From contig NZ_JAGSYA010000004.1 in the NCBI RefSeq assembly GCF_025685395.1, forward strand, positions 1-64,000: a stretch of DNA of 64,000 nucleotides, read 5' to 3'. Positions 620 through 62,304 of the stretch are shown one piece after another; within the stretch, counting starts at the first letter, position 1; every line of letters begins with the position of its first letter. This DNA is from Terriglobus tenax (GTDB lineage Bacteria; Acidobacteriota; Terriglobia; Terriglobales; Acidobacteriaceae). Under the pieces are notes generated by a model, which saw nothing but the letters and a program-made list of their open reading frames with translations, ran no database searches and was not told the DNA's origin. A program made the translations under genes and the position numbers.

Positions 620-1366
620 ATGGCAGTAACTGGAATTCTGGGCAAGAAGATTGGCATGACGCAGGTATTCGATGATCGCGGTGAGGTTCACCCGATTACC
701 GTGCTGAAGGCTGGCCCGTGCGTGATTACACAGCTCAAGACCCTGGCGAAGGACGGCTACGATGCCGCCCAGATCGGCCTGGTGGAGTTTGTGAAGGCGA
801 GCAAGGTGAACAAGCCGATGACCGGCCACTTTGCCAAGAACAATGTCCCCCCGGTCAAGGTCGTGCGTGAAGTAGCGATTGAGACGGTGAAGGGAACCGT
901 GGACGGCAACGAGGCGATCGAGGGCGTAAAGGCCGGTGATCGTATCCTGGTTGACCTGTTCAACGACGAGAAGTTTGTGGATGTGATCGGAACCTCGAAG
1001 GGCCGTGGATTCGCGGGCGTTGTCCGCCGCCATAACTTCGGTGGTGGTCCCAAGTCGCACGGCCACATGTTCCAGATTCAGGGTTCGATCGGTGCATCGT
1101 CCTTCCCCAGCCGTGTTTTCCCGGGCCAGCGTATGCCGGGTCACTATGGAGTGGACCAGGTGACGGTTCGTAACCTGCGTATTCGTGGAATCGACGTGGA
1201 AGAGAACCTGATCATGGTTGAGGGCGCTGTCCCTGGACCGCGTGATGGCTATGTTCTGATCTCGAAGGCCAAGGCTCCGCCGCGTGAGCGTCGTGGCTTC
1301 GGCGGCGAGGCGACCAAGGACGCTCTGAAGGCTTCGAAGAAGGCTTCGGCCGGTAAGAAGAAGTAG
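620..1366 (+). CDS. rplC: 50S ribosomal protein L3
   Basis: The 248-residue protein begins with the L3 signature GILGKKIGMTQVFDDRG and contains the conserved loop GRGFAGVVRRHNFGGGPKSHG (read in two parts), whose tip reaches the peptidyl transferase centre. L3 is one of the first proteins to bind 23S rRNA during 50S assembly. It is longer than the usual ~210 residues because of a lysine/alanine-rich C-terminal tail ending KKASAGKKK. The start has a GAGGAGAGAAGAC ribosome binding site. Similar tails occur on L22 and L29 in this operon. Confidence 0.98.
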   Translation: MAVTGILGKKIGMTQVFDDRGEVHPITVLKAGPCVITQLKTLAKDGYDAAQIGLVEFVKASKVNKPMTGHFAKNNVPPVKVVREVAIETVKGTVDGNEAIEGVKAGDRILVDLFNDEKFVDVIGTSKGRGFAGVVRRHNFGGGPKSHGHMFQIQGSIGASSFPSRVFPGQRMPGHYGVDQVTVRNLRIRGIDVEENLIMVEGAVPGPRDGYVLISKAKAPPRERRGFGGEATKDALKASKKASAGKKK

Positions 1367-1373
1367 GCTCTAG

Positions 1374-1417
1374 CCGCGCCGGGAGGACGTGACCTTCGGT
1401 CGACACTCCCGGCGCGG
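1374..1417 (+). repeat. Long GC hairpin between rplC and rplD
   Basis: CCGCGCCGGGAG (1374-1385) pairs perfectly with CTCCCGGCGCGG (1406-1417). The 20-base interior can form a further small stem with a TTC loop (ACC/GGT). No T-tract follows. The 169-base gap to rplD is long for this operon, so a regulatory or processing role is possible. L4 represses the S10 operon through an RNA hairpin in Escherichia coli, but this element shows no recognisable similarity to that leader. Confidence 0.6.
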
Positions 1418-1535
1418 TGAATGCAAAGAAGCAACAAGCATTGGCTGCAGGGCAGGAAGTTAGGCCGGCTGCGGGATGAGATAGAGACAGTAAGTTACGG
1501 TCCTCGCAATGGAACGAGGCCAAAAGGAAAAGACG

Positions 1536-2207
1536 ATGGCAAACATCAAGGTTTTGAATCTGAGCGGAGAGCAGGTCGGTGATTTTCAGCTGGCCGATGA
1601 AGTCTTCGGCGCAGAAGTGAATGAGGCGTTGCTCTGGGAGGCCGTGAAGCACTACCGTGCTTCGATCCGCCAGGGAACGGCCGCGACGAAGAATAAGAAG
1701 CTTGTTTCTGGTTCCGGCAAGAAGCTGTGGAAGCAGAAGGGCACGGGCCGCGCCCGCGTTGGTTCGGTGCGTTCACCGATCTGGCGTCATGGCGGCACGG
1801 TACACGGACCTCAGCCGCGCAGCTACGAGTACCAGTTCCCGAAGAAGAAGCTGATGGGCGCTCTACGTTCGGCTCTTGCGGCGAAGCTGGCGGACGGTAA
1901 GCTGACAGTGGTTGACACGCTTGAGGCGAAGGAAGCCAAGACCAAGCTGTATCGCCAGGCTCTGGACAAGCTGGATGCCAAGAAGACCGCTCTTCTGGTC
2001 GAGGCCGGCCAGAAGCTGTCCGAGACGGTGTACCTCGGCTCCCGCAACCTGGATGGTGTCGAGCTGGTTCTGAGCTCCGAGGTCCATCCCTATGATCTGC
2101 TGCGCTACGAGCATGCAGTGTTCTCGAAGGATGCCCTTGAGGCTCTGCAGGAGACGCTGAAGAAGACCGTATCCAAGCGCAAGCCTGCTGTGAAGGAGGT
2201 CGCATAA
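1536..2207 (+). CDS. rplD: 50S ribosomal protein L4
   Basis: The 223-residue product starts MANIKVLNLSGEQVG and contains the L4 extended-loop signature KKLWKQKGTGRARVGS followed by RSPIWRHGGTVHGP, which lines the exit tunnel. An in-frame ATG 27 bases upstream would add MERGQKEKT, but AAAAGGAAAAGACG sits directly before the chosen ATG and the family starts here. L4 binds 23S rRNA early and in some bacteria feeds back on its own operon. The stop is followed with no gap by the rplW start, so the two are probably translationally coupled. Confidence 0.97.
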   Translation: MANIKVLNLSGEQVGDFQLADEVFGAEVNEALLWEAVKHYRASIRQGTAATKNKKLVSGSGKKLWKQKGTGRARVGSVRSPIWRHGGTVHGPQPRSYEYQFPKKKLMGALRSALAAKLADGKLTVVDTLEAKEAKTKLYRQALDKLDAKKTALLVEAGQKLSETVYLGSRNLDGVELVLSSEVHPYDLLRYEHAVFSKDALEALQETLKKTVSKRKPAVKEVA

Positions 2208-2501
2208 ATGCCGACCCTGTATACGACGATTCGCCGCCCTCTGATTACCGAGAAGGGCATGGGCGTGAAGGAGACCGAGGGGACGCTGGTATTTGACGTG
2301 GCCCCGGAGGCGACCAAGACCGAAGTGAAGCAGGCCGTTGAGGCACTGTTCAAGGTGAAGGTTGCCGCTGTACGTACGAGCAATGTTGCAGGCAAGGAGC
2401 GCCGCCGCGGCAAGTTTACCGGCTACCGCCCTGACTGGAAGAAGGCGTACGTGAAGCTGAAGGCCGGCGAGAAGATGCCGGACTATATCGACAACCTGTA
2501 A
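2208..2501 (+). CDS. rplW: 50S ribosomal protein L23
   Basis: The 97-residue protein shows the L23 pattern: an N-terminal IRRPLITEKG segment, a central FDVAPEATKTEVKQAVE helix region and the ending DWKKAYVKLKAGEK. L23 stands at the polypeptide exit site, where trigger factor and SRP dock. The ATG abuts the rplD stop, and the GAAGGAGGTCGCATAA of the rplD end provides the ribosome binding site. Order rplC-rplD-rplW-rplB is standard. Confidence 0.97.
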   Translation: MPTLYTTIRRPLITEKGMGVKETEGTLVFDVAPEATKTEVKQAVEALFKVKVAAVRTSNVAGKERRRGKFTGYRPDWKKAYVKLKAGEKMPDYIDNL

Positions 2502-2599
2502 GGCGGGCTGAGCCCGGCAGGGAAGAAGTCAACCGAACGATTCTAGACGCCAGTCGCGAAAACAATATGCGGCTGGCTTAAGGCAAGGAAACAGAGACA

Positions 2600-3424
2600 A
2601 TGCCGATCAAGACATTTCGACCGATTACGCCGACACTGCGCTTCCAGACGAAGCTGGTGAACGACGACATCACGACCAACGAGCCGTACAAGCCGCTTCT
2701 GGCGACCAAGAAGCGCACCGGTGGCCGCAACAATACGGGTATGCTGAGCGTGCGCCACATTGGCGGCGGTCACAAGAAGAAGATCCGTATCATCGACTTC
2801 AAGCGCGACAAGTTCGGAGTTCCGGGCACGGTTGCGACCATCGAATACGATCCGAACCGCAGCTCGCGCATCGCGCTGATCAGCTATGCGGACGGTGAGA
2901 AGCGTTACATTATCCAGCCGCTTGGCCTGAAGGTTGGCCAGAAGGTCATGAGCGGACCGGATGCCGACATTCTGATCGGCAACGCTCTTCCGCTGAAGAA
3001 CATTCCTGCCGGTACGACGGTGCACAACGTTGAGCTTCGCCCAGGCAAGGGTGCGCAGATGGTGCGCTCTGCCGGTTCGAGCGCCCAGCTGGTGGCCAAG
3101 GAAGGCGAGTATGCCCTGCTGAAGCTGCCCTCCGGCGAAACCCGCAAGGTTCTGGTGGAGTGCATGGCGACGGTAGGCCAGGTGGGCAACACCGATCACG
3201 AGAACGTGACGATCGGTAAGGCCGGTGCGAACCGCTGGCGCGGTATCCGTCCGACCAACCGTGGTGTGTCGATGAACCCCGTCGATCACCCGCACGGTGG
3301 TGGTGAGGGTAAGACCTCCGGTGGCCGTCATCCTGTAACGCCGTGGGGTCAGCCGACCCGTGGTTACAAGACCCGTAACAACAAGCGGACCGATGCCTTC
3401 ATCGTGAACCGCCGGACCAAGTAA
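2600..3424 (+). CDS. rplB: 50S ribosomal protein L2
   Basis: The 274-residue protein has the full L2 length. Visible signatures are the N-terminal [31 protein letters not shown], and the C-terminal [18 protein letters not shown] loop that contains the conserved histidine close to the peptidyl transferase centre. L2 is needed for subunit association. The 98-base gap before it contains a weak GGGCTGAGCCC dyad. The ribosome binding site is AAGGAAACAGAGACA before the ATG. Assignment is secure. Confidence 0.98.
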
Positions 3425-3441
3425 AGGCGAGGATTAGAGAT

Positions 3442-3723
3442 ATGGCACGTTCGATGAAGAAGGGCCCGTTTATCGATGCCCACCTTATGACGAAGGTTGA
3501 AAGCCAGAACCAGGCGAATGACAAGAAGGTCATCCGCACCTGGTCTCGCCGTTCGACCATCTACCCGGAGTTTGTCGGCCACACGATTGCTGTGCACAAC
3601 GGAAAGAAGTTCATTCCTGTGTATGTGAGCGAGAACATGGTCGGTCACAAGCTGGGTGAGTTTGCTGCGACACGTACCTTCAAGGGCCACGTGGCGAAGT
3701 CTGAGTCGTCAGCGAAGAAGTAG
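3442..3723 (+). CDS. rpsS: 30S ribosomal protein S19
   Basis: The 93-residue protein starts [15 protein letters not shown] and contains the S19 signature [22 protein letters not shown] and the segment [18 protein letters not shown]19 forms a complex with S13 in the 30S head and contacts the A-site tRNA region. It follows rplB by 17 bases. A short GGAGCG/CGCTCC dyad lies in the gap after it (3731-3751). Confidence 0.98.
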
Positions 3724-3776
3724 CGATCAGCGGAGCGTCTTCAAGGCGCTCCCGACAGAGATAAGAGAGAAGAGTT

Positions 3777-4277
3777 ATGGCACAGGCAGCAGAACAGACC
3801 CGCGAGTTTCGCGCAGAAGCGAAGTTCCAGCGGACCAGCCCGCAGAAGGCCAAGCTGGTGCTGGATCTGATCAAGGGCAAGCGTGTTGAGGCGGCATTGA
3901 CGACCGTGATGTTCACCAAGAAGCGCGTCGCTCCGCTGGTGGAGAAGGTACTGCGTTCGGCAGTACAGAACGCCAACTACCTCAGCCAGGAGCATGGCTT
4001 TGACCTGGACGTCGACAACCTGTACGTGAAGTCGGCTGTGGCGAACGAAGGTCCTCGCATGAAGCGTATCCGTCCTGCCCCGATGGGCCGTGCGTATCGC
4101 TACCAGCGTCGCATCGCGCACATCATCGTGACGGTAGCGGAGAAGAAGTCTGCGGCTTCGGCAGCAGCTTCCGAGGCTCCGGCGGTGAAGGCAGCAGCCC
4201 CGAAGAAGGCAGCCAAGAAGACGGCCGCCAAGAAGGCTCCGGCGAAGAAGGCCGCGGCCAAGAAGGCTGCGAAGTAG
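3777..4277 (+). CDS. rplV: 50S ribosomal protein L22 with lysine/alanine tail
   Basis: Residues 1 to about 120 form a normal L22: FQRTSPQKAKLVLDLIKGK, then the extended hairpin ending in RIRPAPMGRAYRYQRR and HIIVTVAEKK. L22 lines the exit tunnel with L4. The remaining 45 residues are an alanine/lysine low-complexity tail built from repeats such as KKAAKKTAAKKAPAKK, like the tails of bacterial histone H1-like proteins. At 166 residues the protein is about 50 longer than the typical L22. A shorter tail of the same kind occurs on L29 nearby. Confidence 0.97.
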   Translation: MAQAAEQTREFRAEAKFQRTSPQKAKLVLDLIKGKRVEAALTTVMFTKKRVAPLVEKVLRSAVQNANYLSQEHGFDLDVDNLYVKSAVANEGPRMKRIRPAPMGRAYRYQRRIAHIIVTVAEKKSAASAAASEAPAVKAAAPKKAAKKTAAKKAPAKKAAAKKAAK

Positions 4278-4353
4278 TCAGGGATCGATTTACCGATTTG
4301 AACGCGACCGGCCGAATAGATGGACCGGCGCGCATGGAGTGAAGGGATAGCTT

Positions 4354-5022
<669 letters not shown>

Positions 5023-56232: not shown

Positions 56233-57969
56233 TTACCGCTCCAGGTACCCTACAGGGAGCAACCCTCGGACCGAATTGCCAAGGTAGAGGCGGTCATCTG
56301 GCAACAAATCCGCCAGAGTCACTGACCGCTCCTCGGGAGCAAGATGCGCACGAAGAATCCCCGGCAGCACGCCATCCGCTAATGGGGGCGTAAGCAAATG
56401 CCCATTGCGTTCCACAAAGAAATTTGTGATGCAGCCTTCCGTGAGGTGGCCTTGCTCATTGACGAAAAGTACCTCGTCGAAGCCGCGCGTACGAGCCATT
56501 GCAAGCTCATCGTCGTAAAGAGTACGGCGCGTGGTCTTGTGATGCAGAAAGACATCCAGCGAATTCGTACGCTGTGGCGACAGTAAAACCCGCAGAGGGC
56601 GGTTCTCAAGAACAATGACCACGGACGTTATGGAGCAAGCTCCCGAGCGCTCTAGCAGTAGGCGGATGCGATGTGTTCCTTCCAGTTTCTGTGCCGCAAC
56701 CAGCAGCTCTTTCTCCATTGCGGTGGGATCGAAGCGGAATCCGAAGTACTCCGCTGACTGCTGCAGCCGCGCAAGATGCTCTGTAAGAAAGTGGACACGG
56801 TTGCCATCCCACAGCATTGTTTCAATTAGCTGGAATGGCTGCGAGTCCTGTTGCAGGAACGATCCCTTCAGGCGCGTCTCTTCATACTCGGCTGCCGCAT
56901 CCGAGTCATACGTGATGCCTGCACCTACCCCCATGTTTGCCGTCCCGTCCTGCAGAGTGATAGTGCGAATGGCTACCGAGAAGCATGCTTCGTTGTCCGG
57001 CGCGATAAAGCCGATGCATCCTGTGTACACTCCCCGCGGCCTGTCCTCGAGCGAATGAATCAGTTCCATCGTCTTAATCTTGGGAGCCCCAACGATGGAC
57101 CCGGAAGGGAAAAGCGCACGGAAGATATCGGCGTATCCCGTTTCCGGCTTCAAATCAGCACAGATGGTTGAGGTCATCTGGTGCAGCGTAGGATAGCGCT
57201 CCACCTGGAAAAGCCCGCGGACATGAACAGAACCCGTTGCGCAGATACGGCCAAGATCATTACGAAGCAGGTCAACAATCATCAGGTTCTCGGCGCGGTT
57301 CTTCTCATCGTTTGCCAGCCATTGCATCCGCTGCTGGTCTTCGCTCAGATTACGCCCGCGCTGCGCGGTGCCTTTCATCGGGCGTGTTGTGATGCGGGCC
57401 TCTTCACGTTGAAAAAACAACTCGGGCGAAGCTGACAGAATCTGCGCCTCACCGGTATTCACAAAAGCGCCAAACTCGACCGGCTGCACGGCCAGGATGT
57501 GATGCAGCAAATCTTCGGGGGAACAGCCATACTTCCATTCCAGTTGTGTTGTCAGATTGACCTGGTACGTATCTCCTCTTTCAATATGCTGCTTGATGCG
57601 AGCGACTTTGTGTGCAAATTGATCCTTTGTCATCAGGATGGACGCGTGTTCCAACTCGAGGGGCGGAACAGCCCCCTGGTAGCGGAATGTCTCACGCTGT
57701 GTATACAGACCAAACCATGCCAGCGGTTTTCCCTCGCCGGGCATCAAGTGACGGAGCGAGGGCTCCAGCGCATAGCCGGCCTCATAGGCCATGTATCCTG
57801 CGGCGTAGAGCCCGCTCCTGGTTGCGTCATCCAACGTCTGCAACAACCGTTCAAGCTCTTCAGCGTTGAAAGCCATAAGTGTCTCAACGGGGTTTTGAAA
57901 CAGATAGCTCGGTGCTCCCGTCTGTGCGTTGACGAGCATGACCGTGCCGGGCTGGTCGTAGGCAGACAT
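56233..57969 (-). CDS. pabB: PabB-PabC fusion: aminodeoxychorismate synthase / lyase
   Basis: The 578-residue protein joins two folate enzymes. Residues 1 to about 350 are component I of 4-amino-4-deoxychorismate synthase, with TTRPMKGTAQRGRN, VDLLRNDLGRI and FPSGSIVGAPKIKTMELIHS. The C-terminal ~220 residues are the PLP-dependent 4-amino-4-deoxychorismate lyase with HKTTRRTLYDDELA (PLP lysine) and LTEGCITNFFVERNG. Together they make p-aminobenzoate. The frame stays open upstream well past the family start, so the ATG at 57969 (MSAYDQPGTVML) was taken. PabA is not in the window. Confidence 0.9.
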   Translation of the reverse strand: MSAYDQPGTVMLVNAQTGAPSYLFQNPVETLMAFNAEELERLLQTLDDATRSGLYAAGYMAYEAGYALEPSLRHLMPGEGKPLAWFGLYTQRETFRYQGAVPPLELEHASILMTKDQFAHKVARIKQHIERGDTYQVNLTTQLEWKYGCSPEDLLHHILAVQPVEFGAFVNTGEAQILSASPELFFQREEARITTRPMKGTAQRGRNLSEDQQRMQWLANDEKNRAENLMIVDLLRNDLGRICATGSVHVRGLFQVERYPTLHQMTSTICADLKPETGYADIFRALFPSGSIVGAPKIKTMELIHSLEDRPRGVYTGCIGFIAPDNEACFSVAIRTITLQDGTANMGVGAGITYDSDAAAEYEETRLKGSFLQQDSQPFQLIETMLWDGNRVHFLTEHLARLQQSAEYFGFRFDPTAMEKELLVAAQKLEGTHRIRLLLERSGACSITSVVIVLENRPLRVLLSPQRTNSLDVFLHHKTTRRTLYDDELAMARTRGFDEVLFVNEQGHLTEGCITNFFVERNGHLLTPPLADGVLPGILRAHLAPEERSVTLADLLPDDRLYLGNSVRGLLPVGYLER

Positions 57970-58071
57970 ACTCTGTCTAGGATAAAGTGCGCCGCGCGTG
58001 GCATGATCTGGTAACGTCACATCATGCCCTCGCAACCGCAAGGGCGATCTCAAACAAGTCAGAGGCCAGCC

Positions 58072-58536
58072 GTGAAGAAGTTCCTTCTCTCCGTCGCATT
58101 TGCCATGTGTGCATTGCCCGCCGTTGTCCATGCCCAGGAGGCCCCGAAGACAGGTGTTGATGTCTCGAAGCTGCCCTTTAGCCCAGGCCTTCCCATCGGC
58201 GACACGGTTTACGTCAGCGGACATCTTGGTGTGGACCCCGCGGTCGACAAGGCTCCGCCAGCCGATCCAGAGGCGGAGGTCCGCAAGCTGCTCGACGGCA
58301 TCCAGGCCACACTCAAGACCTCCGGTCTGACGATGGACGACATGGTCTATGTGGAGGTCTTCTGCACTGACCTCAAGCTCTATCCCGCGTTCAATAAAGT
58401 TTATTCCAGCTACTTCAGCAAGCCATATCCGGCGCGCGCCTTTATCGGTGTAAAGGATCTGCTCTTTGGCGCCCACTTTGAAGTGATGGGGCTTGCCGTG
58501 AAGAATGGAGCGCAGCAGAAGAAGGGAACCAGATAA
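58072..58536 (+). CDS. Exported RidA-family protein
   Basis: The 154-residue protein has a Sec signal peptide (KKFLLSVAFAMCALPAVVHA) followed by a RidA/YjgF fold: FSPGLPIGDTVYVSGHLGVD, TLKTSGLTMDDMVYVEVFCTDL, FNKVYSSYF and ARAFIGVKDLLFGAHFEVMG with the conserved arginine. RidA enzymes hydrolyse reactive enamine/imine products of PLP enzymes. The start is read as GTG 58072; an ATG at 58024 would put 16 residues before the signal peptide. The gene is three bases before a PLP-enzyme gene. An exported RidA is unusual. Confidence 0.85.
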   Translation: MKKFLLSVAFAMCALPAVVHAQEAPKTGVDVSKLPFSPGLPIGDTVYVSGHLGVDPAVDKAPPADPEAEVRKLLDGIQATLKTSGLTMDDMVYVEVFCTDLKLYPAFNKVYSSYFSKPYPARAFIGVKDLLFGAHFEVMGLAVKNGAQQKKGTR

Positions 58537-58539
58537 CCC

Positions 58540-59763
58540 ATGCAACCTACGCGGCGCAGTGTGATGAAGTCGGCTCTTGGCCTGCATCTTTCCATGGCTG
58601 TCTCCAGGGCCTGGGCCGTCGCTGCTGCGCCGCAGTTTCCTGACCGGCAGAACTTCCAGTTCTCCGGCACTTTTCTCGATGCGGCCTACACGCATCCCAT
58701 GTGTCTTGCTGCGTACAATGCGGGGAAAGCCTTTCTTGAAAGCCGCGTGCATCAGCCAGCTATCTCCTGGCCTCGGACCAATCCGCGCAACGCCGCGGTG
58801 CAGGCCTTTGCGGAGTTGATCAATGCTGCGCCGGCGGAGGTCGCCGTCGTCCCCAGCACCATGGGTGGCGAGAACATGCTCTGCGCAGCGCTTGGACTTG
58901 GGCCGCAGGCGGGTGTAGTTACGGATGCCTATCATTACGACGCATCGCTGGCTATGTATGGTGAAATGGAGCGCGCCGGCATCCCGGTCACCGTATTGGA
59001 AGCGAAGAACAACCGCGTCGATCTTGCCGACCTGGATCGAGCCATCACAAAAAATACGCGCCTGGTGGCCATCTCGCAGATTGCGAGCCTCACAGGCTTT
59101 CAGCATGACCTGAAAGCTGTGTGTGAGATTGCCCACTCAAAGGGAACTCTGGTCTACGCCGACATCGTACAGGCCGCAGGAGCAGTCCCCATCGATGTGA
59201 AGCAGAGCGGTGTCGACTTTGCCTGCGCGGGAACCTATAAGTGGCTGATGGGTGACTTCGGTATCGGCTTTCTGTATGTGCGGCCAGACCGGCTCGCACA
59301 ACTCCGCCGTGTGCAGTGGGGCTGGCGCTCGTTTTCAAACGAAGCGCATCACATTTTACCCTTTGACGATCCCGGCCCTGCCATCGGGACATGGACCGAA
59401 GCCGCCAGCACCGCTGCACATTTCGAAGCCGGTAGCCCGGCCTGGGGAGCGCTTGCATCGGCTGCTGCATCCATCGGGTTCGTCCGCTCCATCGGTGTCG
59501 AAAATATCCAGCGCTATCGCCAACCGATGATCGACCGGCTGCAGCAGGAACTTCCTGCGTTCGGCTTCCTGCCTCTAACTCCCGCTCCAACCACCGGACC
59601 GACCGTCGCTTTTGCTTATAAAGGTGCGCAGGCAAAGTTTGCCGCTGCGCTGGAGGCAGAAAAGATAAAGATCACCCTGCGCGAACACCACGTCCGCATC
59701 TCCGTGTCGATCTACAACGACATGGAAGATATTGATCGGCTGCTGCGTGTCTTGAAGGCGTAG
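58540..59763 (+). CDS. Tat-exported class V PLP enzyme (aminotransferase/epimerase-like)
   Basis: The 407-residue protein starts with a twin-arginine-like signal (TRRSVMKSALGLH, then AVSRAWAVAA), as expected for a protein folded around PLP before export. It has the class V aminotransferase fold of the isopenicillin N epimerase/NifS type: VVPSTMGGENMLCAALG, VYADIVQAAGAVPID (Asp208) and the PLP lysine Lys234 in AGTYKWLMGDFG. The reaction is not fixed: epimerase, lyase or aminotransferase are possible. It lies three bases after the exported RidA and 12 before an L,D-transpeptidase gene. Confidence 0.88.
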   Translation: MQPTRRSVMKSALGLHLSMAVSRAWAVAAAPQFPDRQNFQFSGTFLDAAYTHPMCLAAYNAGKAFLESRVHQPAISWPRTNPRNAAVQAFAELINAAPAEVAVVPSTMGGENMLCAALGLGPQAGVVTDAYHYDASLAMYGEMERAGIPVTVLEAKNNRVDLADLDRAITKNTRLVAISQIASLTGFQHDLKAVCEIAHSKGTLVYADIVQAAGAVPIDVKQSGVDFACAGTYKWLMGDFGIGFLYVRPDRLAQLRRVQWGWRSFSNEAHHILPFDDPGPAIGTWTEAASTAAHFEAGSPAWGALASAAASIGFVRSIGVENIQRYRQPMIDRLQQELPAFGFLPLTPAPTTGPTVAFAYKGAQAKFAAALEAEKIKITLREHHVRISVSIYNDMEDIDRLLRVLKA

Positions 59764-59775
59764 CAGGAAAAAAGT

Positions 59776-60303
59776 ATGAGCAGTTTGCGCTGGCTTCGAC
59801 TGTTGCTCGTGATCACAGTTCTACTGACAGTTTTTTCTTTTCTCACAACCATGCCGAGGCAGTCTTTGCCCATCGGCACACGCGCGGATCGCATTGTTGT
59901 GATGAAGCACAGTCACACTCTGTACCTGCTATCAAAGGGAACCGTGCTTAAGAGCTACCAGGTCGCGCTCGGTCGCGGTGGTCTAGCGCCCAAACGGAAG
60001 CGTGACGACAATCTTGTTCCCGAAGGAATTTACAGCCTTACCGGGCGGAACGAGTACAGCGCATTCCATCGCTCACTGCGAATCGGTTATCCTACGCCGG
60101 TGCAGAACGCTGAAGCACGTGCAGCGGGCGTCGATCCCGGCAGCGACGTTATGCTTCATGGCATTTGCAATGGACTTGGCTGGCTAGGAAGAGTTCATCG
60201 CACTGTCGATTGGACACGAGGCTGCATCGCCGTGACAGATGATGAGATTGAAGAAATATGGCGGGCGGTGCCGAATGGTACCCCCATCGACATCCGCCCA
60301 TGA
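59776..60303 (+). CDS. L,D-transpeptidase (YkuD domain)
   Basis: The 175-residue protein has a single N-terminal membrane anchor (residues 6-25) and a YkuD domain: IVVMKHSHTLYLLSKGTVLK, VPEGIYSLTGRN, His128-Gly in MLHGICNG and Cys150 in DWTRGCIAVTDDEIEE. L,D-transpeptidases make 3-3 peptidoglycan cross-links, attach lipoproteins, or add free D-amino acids to stem peptides. The gene follows the PLP-enzyme gene by 12 bases on the same strand and is probably in one transcript. It faces uvrB. Confidence 0.92.
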   Translation: MSSLRWLRLLLVITVLLTVFSFLTTMPRQSLPIGTRADRIVVMKHSHTLYLLSKGTVLKSYQVALGRGGLAPKRKRDDNLVPEGIYSLTGRNEYSAFHRSLRIGYPTPVQNAEARAAGVDPGSDVMLHGICNGLGWLGRVHRTVDWTRGCIAVTDDEIEEIWRAVPNGTPIDIRP

Positions 60304-60315
60304 TGCGGAAATCTC

Positions 60316-62304
<1,989 letters not shown>

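Follow-up and report, generated by a model that had tools for sequence, protein, structure and literature searches.

A predicted Tat-exported class V pyridoxal-phosphate enzyme beside a predicted exported RidA in Terriglobus tenax, and the recurrence of this pairing in other bacteria

RidA is a model case for the pre-empting of metabolite damage and has mostly been studied together with cytosolic enzymes that depend on pyridoxal 5'-phosphate (PLP). The genes of RidA proteins cluster with those of PLP enzymes and of amine oxidases that use flavin adenine dinucleotide (FAD), and RidA hydrolyses the imines of both, for which it needs its arginine, as described by Niehaus et al. (2015; PMC4433059). 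Here we have analyzed a locus of Terriglobus tenax in which a RidA gene (ridA) is followed by the gene of a class V PLP enzyme and by ykuD, the gene of a YkuD-domain protein. It is found near the end of the first 64,000 nucleotides of contig NZ_JAGSYA010000004.1, the whole stretch that we call the window. Like the clusters of Niehaus et al. (2015), in which RidA adjoins PLP enzymes or FAD amine oxidases, the locus has a RidA beside a PLP enzyme with the catalytic arginine kept. Unlike them, both partners carry predicted export signals, whereas the text of that article (PMC4433059) mentions neither periplasm nor signal peptide and has words for export and secretion in its reference list only.

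RidA outside the cytoplasm has been described together with oxidases. For Chlamydomonas, a published scheme shows a periplasmic LAO1 together with LAO2/RidA (PMC10805672), and the lao-cccA-ridA genes of Gluconacetobacter diazotrophicus code for an L-amino acid oxidase of the twin-arginine translocation (Tat) type, which is proposed to be periplasmic, a cytochrome c and a RidA (PMC5053998). Like the window as we read it, both associate RidA with an enzyme that deaminates amino acids outside the cytoplasm. Both differ from it, as far as the accessible sections go, in that RidA is joined to a flavin L-amino acid oxidase instead of a PLP enzyme; for G. diazotrophicus those sections state the Tat signal of the oxidase and do not state export of its RidA (PMC5053998). 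There is also precedent for exported PLP enzymes. PvdN and PtaA, periplasmic PLP enzymes of pyoverdine tailoring, are exported by Tat with PLP bound (PMC6206403), and the folded export of PLP enzymes by Tat appears as well in PMC7497351 and PMC11794154. The enzyme of the window is predicted to be carried folded in the same way, and it differs from PvdN and PtaA in scoring far below the cut-off of the PvdN model and in having a RidA partner, which the accessible text on those two does not mention. From what is accessible of them, PMC7688666 deals with the cytoplasmic Rid6, and neither it nor PMC9537276 and PMC3827258 bear on exported RidA. In the open-access literature searched, no pair of an exported PLP enzyme and an exported RidA came to light. 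The parts are known separately and the version made of an oxidase and RidA is known; the version made of an exported PLP enzyme and RidA seems to be new.

The explanation to which we lean, with slightly more confidence than doubt, is that the PLP enzyme converts amino acids in the cell envelope and that the exported RidA hydrolyses its enamine or imine product, with YkuD outside of this unit. A sequence-only reading of the locus had seen in the three genes a periplasmic amino-acid-converting module that edits the cell wall. Its description is borne out. The coordinates of the open reading frames (ORFs) place the three genes head to tail on the + strand with spacings of 3 and 12 bases, the Pfam matches to PF01042, PF00266 and PF03734 all exceed the gathering cut-offs, and each product carries a predicted export signal, as judged by motif and a hydropathy heuristic: Sec-like (general secretory) in RidA, a Tat motif in the PLP enzyme and a hydrophobic N-terminal stretch, at about residues 5-24 by eye, in YkuD. 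The module itself survives in part, as RidA recurs with the Tat-type PLP enzyme in separate lineages and keeps its arginine; YkuD is no member of it.

The link between RidA and this PLP family is recurrent, not obligatory. Among the best 80 of 211 loci of other genomes (27 of these 80 shorter than 20 kb), 21 had a RidA of the PF01042 or PF14588 type at no more than 10 kb from the PLP gene. In a tree of 85 rows, which leaves out L059, L061, L083 and L106 (shorter than 370 amino acids) and in which the state of the window was set by hand, RidA lies within 300 bp of the PLP gene in 15 rows (12 of PF01042 type and three of PF14588 type only), and the adjacency changes state at least eight times, gain and loss not being told apart. 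The gene order also varies: RidA is upstream of the PLP gene in the window and in four genomes of the same genus. Four Nitrospirillum loci and Duganella have it downstream, Shewanella mangrovi and Xanthomonas bonasiae have a RidA on either side, and at locus L032 it is divergent at a distance of 437 bp. When 41 relatives were compared, five of nine family genes had a RidA within 1.5 kb versus one of 141 other class V genes among the matches listed (150 for PLP enzymes and 124 for RidA); weaker matches and second copies did not enter the comparison, and on visual inspection none came closer than 5 kb to a PLP gene of the list. The five belong to the window and to four genomes of its genus and are therefore not independent. 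The one other class V match (L144, G039:C62) is a different Tat-type enzyme, whose gene is immediately preceded by two RidA genes.

The neighbouring RidA proteins frequently look exported themselves. Of the 19 loci with a PF01042-type RidA within 5 kb, 13 show a signal-like N-terminus or a fusion to a signal-bearing protein, although seven of these 13 come from two close groups; the signal is missing in L043, in L051 (where the PLP enzyme has none either) and in L112-L115. At three loci, two from Hyphomonas and one from Henriciella, an amidohydrolase ORF with a signal ends in a C-terminal RidA domain, and this domain is separated from the Tat-type PLP gene by about 3.85 kb (L093 5690-8191, L096 5595-8171 and L101 22-2517, the domain being checked with Pfam in L093 only). 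In Shewanella mangrovi (L074, 5865-14819) an operon-like run codes for an S10 peptidase, an amidohydrolase, a PF14588-type RidA and the Tat-type PLP enzyme, and continues with a Sec-type RidA, an M61-like peptidase and a further S10 peptidase.

The PLP enzyme starts with MQPTRRSVMK, and its twin-arginine motif is a trait of the family. A script found such a motif in 73 of the 80 homologous loci of other genomes, a number that includes L067 and L071, where no signal is seen on reading, and misses L087 and L094 (SRRTF). Among 30 loci of the class the motif appears in 29, and the sole locus without it, L242, sits at a contig edge. The homologues at the 80 loci span Acidobacteriota, Pseudomonadota, Bacteroidota and Gemmatimonadota. 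The match to PF00266 reached 138.5 bits, and none of the NCBIfam equivalog models scored above its cut-off for either the PLP enzyme or the YkuD protein. Six residues (K234, D208, H132, H52, D239 and R386) are invariant in the 48 aligned family members. By homology, D208 would be the aspartate that contacts the pyridine nitrogen and R386 the arginine that binds the substrate. In an alignment with the solved cysteine desulfurase 8d8s, the latter falls on an arginine that we take to bind the carboxylate, which would suit an alpha-amino acid as substrate.

An AlphaFold model of the enzyme (mean predicted local distance difference test, pLDDT, of 92.4) had SufS and CsdA as the closest solved folds (template modelling, TM, scores of 0.74-0.80 at about 20% identity), and the fold search identified nothing more specific than this general fold. 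Despite the fold, the enzyme is not a SufS cysteine desulfurase: it scored 112.6 versus 475.1 bits, it carries a Tat motif and it lacks the C-terminal catalytic cysteine, presumably the equivalent of Cys364 in E. coli SufS. No column rich in cysteine is seen towards the end of the family alignment. An assignment to PvdN was rejected too (NF051467, 40.8 versus 650 bits). Nor did the tree support the gene as the vertically inherited copy of the genus. Its sister in the tree is L031 (support 96/87), which is also its closest homologue (60% on the tree alignment), and not L112-L115 of the same genus.

The RidA protein begins with VKKFLLSVAFAMCALPAVVHA, followed by QE. The shape is that of a Sec signal (hydropathy heuristic 2.52), and the cut after VHA was placed by what we take to be the cleavage rule of signal peptidase. 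Its PF01042 score is 84.3 bits (gathering cut-off 27.3). With 80.9 bits it does not reach the 106.25 of TIGR00004, and it was therefore assigned as a divergent member to PF01042 only. Arg122, in a PAR motif, and Glu137 are present, and the motif makes Arg122 the putative catalytic arginine. In the RidA proteins near the class V family this arginine is kept in 20 of 22 distinct proteins (22 of 24 rows, with two repeats) and the glutamate in all 22; the two without arginine, in L043 and L097, are 2.6 and 7 kb from the PLP gene and have no signal.

Table 1. Features of the ridA-PLP-ykuD locus (positions in the window)
Feature	Position	Strand	Evidence or remark
25-bp leader beside the pabB start, before RidA	58005..58029	+	88% identical to, and in the same place as, the ykuD leader of G016
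RidA-family protein, 154 aa, GTG start	58072..58536	+	PF01042 8.4e-24; best solved relatives RidA/YjgF proteins
RidA residues 1-21, predicted signal peptide of Sec type ending in VHA	58072..58134	+	Sequence and hydropathy heuristic
RidA Arg122, putative catalytic arginine by motif	58435..58437	+	Column kept in 20/22 distinct RidA
Class V (fold-type I) PLP enzyme, 407 aa, Tat-type family	58540..59763	+	PF00266 3.6e-40
Twin-arginine motif TRRSVMK	58549..58569	+	Conserved family-wide
Lys234, predicted PLP Schiff-base lysine	59239..59241	+	Invariant in 48/48 aligned members; role by homology
Protein with YkuD domain and N-terminal anchor; a bystander and older neighbour of pabB/uvrB	59776..60303	+	PF03734 1e-15

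We propose that the PLP enzyme would take up its cofactor and fold in the cytoplasm before it leaves by Tat. Outside, it would convert an alpha-amino acid, free or at the end of a short peptide and probably liberated by envelope peptidases, and would release an enamine or imine. The Sec-exported RidA would hydrolyse this product to a 2-oxo acid and ammonia, which may spare the envelope proteins and the PLP enzyme itself. The source of the substrate is suggested by the genes around the family elsewhere. We surveyed 72 loci, of which 54 had operonic neighbours, with at most four taken from each (15 of 88 loci were skipped as redundant, truncated or divergent, one had no gene call and four long proteins were dropped). 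The gene calls came from our own ORF scoring, which is weak for GC-rich DNA. Among the 127 neighbour proteins there were 20 S10 peptidases, 15 matches to PF01042 and six to PF14588 (which may overlap), 12 Lrp/AsnC regulators, eight M61, six S9 and five S15 peptidases, four amidohydrolases and three M28 peptidases. At L031 the PLP gene is followed by an M28 peptidase. The N-termini of those neighbouring peptidases that were read are mostly signal-like. Conversion of amino acids freed by envelope peptidases therefore fits these neighbourhoods, and they do not suggest any connection with peptidoglycan.

The genome of T. tenax holds further predicted exported RidA proteins: six RidA genes were found, five of which look exported. 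At L169 (G000:C4:1426000-1431500, 964-4380, - strand) a Tat-type RidA is located between two Tat-type PLP ammonia lyases of the DgaE family, a gene order that recurs in L173-L175 and L183. A survey of DgaE-family lyases in 121 genomes, limited to the best 30 loci out of 69 matches, gave a Tat-like motif in 29 of the 30 and a RidA within 300 bp in 13; all 13 of these RidA proteins have by eye a signal-like start, 11 of them with a twin arginine. At L167 (G000:C4:2884000-2890500, 1632-3833, + strand) the gene of a Tat-type flavin amine oxidase is separated by 51 bases from that of a Sec-type RidA downstream. In the loci of such oxidases the Tat motif was found in 22 of 22 and a RidA directly downstream in 11. 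The catalytic arginine is present in the RidA of all 13 DgaE-type loci and all 11 oxidase loci. L166 and L168 have an exported RidA and no evident partner; in the first (G000:C4:1202000-1207500, 2558-2995) the Tat-type RidA adjoins an oxidoreductase of the GFO/IDH/MocA type, with no PLP partner in view. These loci raise a broader proposal, to which we give about an even chance, namely that Rid proteins form a general damage-control system of the envelope in which RidA is exported alongside exported enzymes that form enamines or imines. With the same balance of confidence, this proposal would extend beyond oxidases to RidA with two unrelated kinds of Tat-type PLP enzyme. In Acidobacteriota these would be DgaE-like and class V enzymes, and in Proteobacteria class V enzymes as well. 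Should it be true, the genome of the window would hold three exported enzyme-RidA units.

The third gene has a different history. YkuD (PF03734, 59 bits versus a cut-off of 23.4) has HG at residue 128 and GC at 149, in agreement with what we take to be the motif of L,D-transpeptidases, HG...(S/T)xGC. The YkuD domain and a TRGC motif are shared with the DpaA/YafK-type proteins, although the protein cannot be assigned to these amidases since its NF040599 score is far below the cut-off (42 versus 365 bits). The gap between pabB and uvrB spans 2346 bases in the window and contains all three genes. In the near relative G016 (UvrB 93% identical) the gap measures 603 bases and contains ykuD only, 2 bases from uvrB, and in G009, G002 and G013 (UvrB 93-94% identical) the gaps are of 362, 259 and 294 bases and the three genes are all absent. 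The leader that stands before ykuD in G016 is found in the window before ridA (E=5e-4 and 0.001 in two blastn comparisons of the gaps), and a relic of it is seen in G009 (84% identical, E=0.012). As the relic leader now precedes ridA, the simplest reading is that the pair was inserted upstream of ykuD, probably between its leader and its coding sequence; loss of the pair from the other relatives is an alternative that keeps some probability. A palindrome-like stretch, GGGACATGGGCCCGGCCT, recurs in the empty gaps of L224-L226 and may represent a dispersed repeat. By base composition the pair does not stand out as foreign, with GC contents of 0.572 and 0.594 close to the 0.588 of the window. For ridA an alternative start is available, an in-frame ATG at 58024 that would add 16 residues. 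No sigma-70-like promoter was matched at 57700-60700 (0 versus 1.3 expected) and a scan for promoters and terminators did not rise above shuffled sequence; spacing is therefore the sole basis for the operon status of the three genes. Besides pabB and uvrB, the genes read near the pair include a dehydrogenase.

This history decides against the wall-editing module, in which the PLP enzyme would make periplasmic D-amino acids, RidA would clean up and YkuD would incorporate them into peptidoglycan. The tight spacing and the three export signals speak for it, and periplasmic racemases supplying transpeptidases do exist elsewhere. However, relatives of this YkuD occur in six of the 41 genomes, and outside the window (G016, that is L160, and L161-L164) the stretch examined around ykuD contained neither a RidA nor a PLP match in any of the five. 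The RidA-PLP pair is present in G003, G005, G012 and G014, which have no match to the YkuD of the window, and in G269 without a YkuD within 1.5 kb. A YkuD profile of six sequences found no further copy near the PLP genes at the 80 loci, of which 27 are shorter than 20 kb, and YkuD stands beside the PLP gene in one of the 30 class loci, the window itself. The separation of the genes in relatives, with ykuD alone in G016 and unlinked elsewhere, leads us to reject the three-gene set as a conserved module; it is an outcome under which, by the terms of the sequence-only reading itself, the module would fail. YkuD is an older neighbour and not part of the RidA-PLP unit. For D-amino acids or wall editing we found nothing in support; at other loci the operonic neighbours consist chiefly of peptidases, RidA proteins and Lrp regulators. 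We regard the wall module as very improbable.

It is less improbable, if still unlikely, that the enzyme tailors a secreted peptide or siderophore in the manner of PvdN, with RidA as an accessory. The Tat-exported precedents, a weak match to the PvdN model (1.1e-10) and the TonB receptors near some family members fit such a role; the distance from the equivalog cut-off does not, nor do the peptidases and Lrp regulators found elsewhere, and pabB, uvrB and the dehydrogenase make no biosynthetic cluster. A shade less probable is that there is no functional link, and that an exported RidA came to adjoin the PLP gene by chance. Since exported RidA proteins are common in this genome, two of them without evident partner, a single one is weak evidence alone. 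Other points likewise weigh against a functional pair: most members of the PLP family have no RidA nearby; L031 and the paralogue in the same genome, L111, have none in the stretch examined; the close relatives L083 and L106 show no adjacent RidA, on contigs that end inside the gene. Among the class loci, 26 of 30 have no RidA within 1.5 kb and the four that do are all of the family of the window, four loci having a cut flank. Moreover, in L112-L115 an enzyme with Tat motif stands with a RidA without signal, and none of the eight loci with a PF14588-type RidA within 5 kb has a signal on it. Against chance, nevertheless, stand the contrast between the nine family genes and the 141 other class V matches, the repeated changes of state on the tree with differing gene orders, and the three loci where a RidA domain and a secreted-type amidohydrolase share one ORF near the PLP gene.

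If an exported RidA does track exported PLP enzymes, reactive enamines would be a hazard in the bacterial envelope too. Acidobacteriota and some Proteobacteria would then perform part of their amino-acid conversion in the envelope. The RidA-PLP pairs offer a handle on a family of Tat-type PLP enzymes that is not claimed by any NCBIfam equivalog model.

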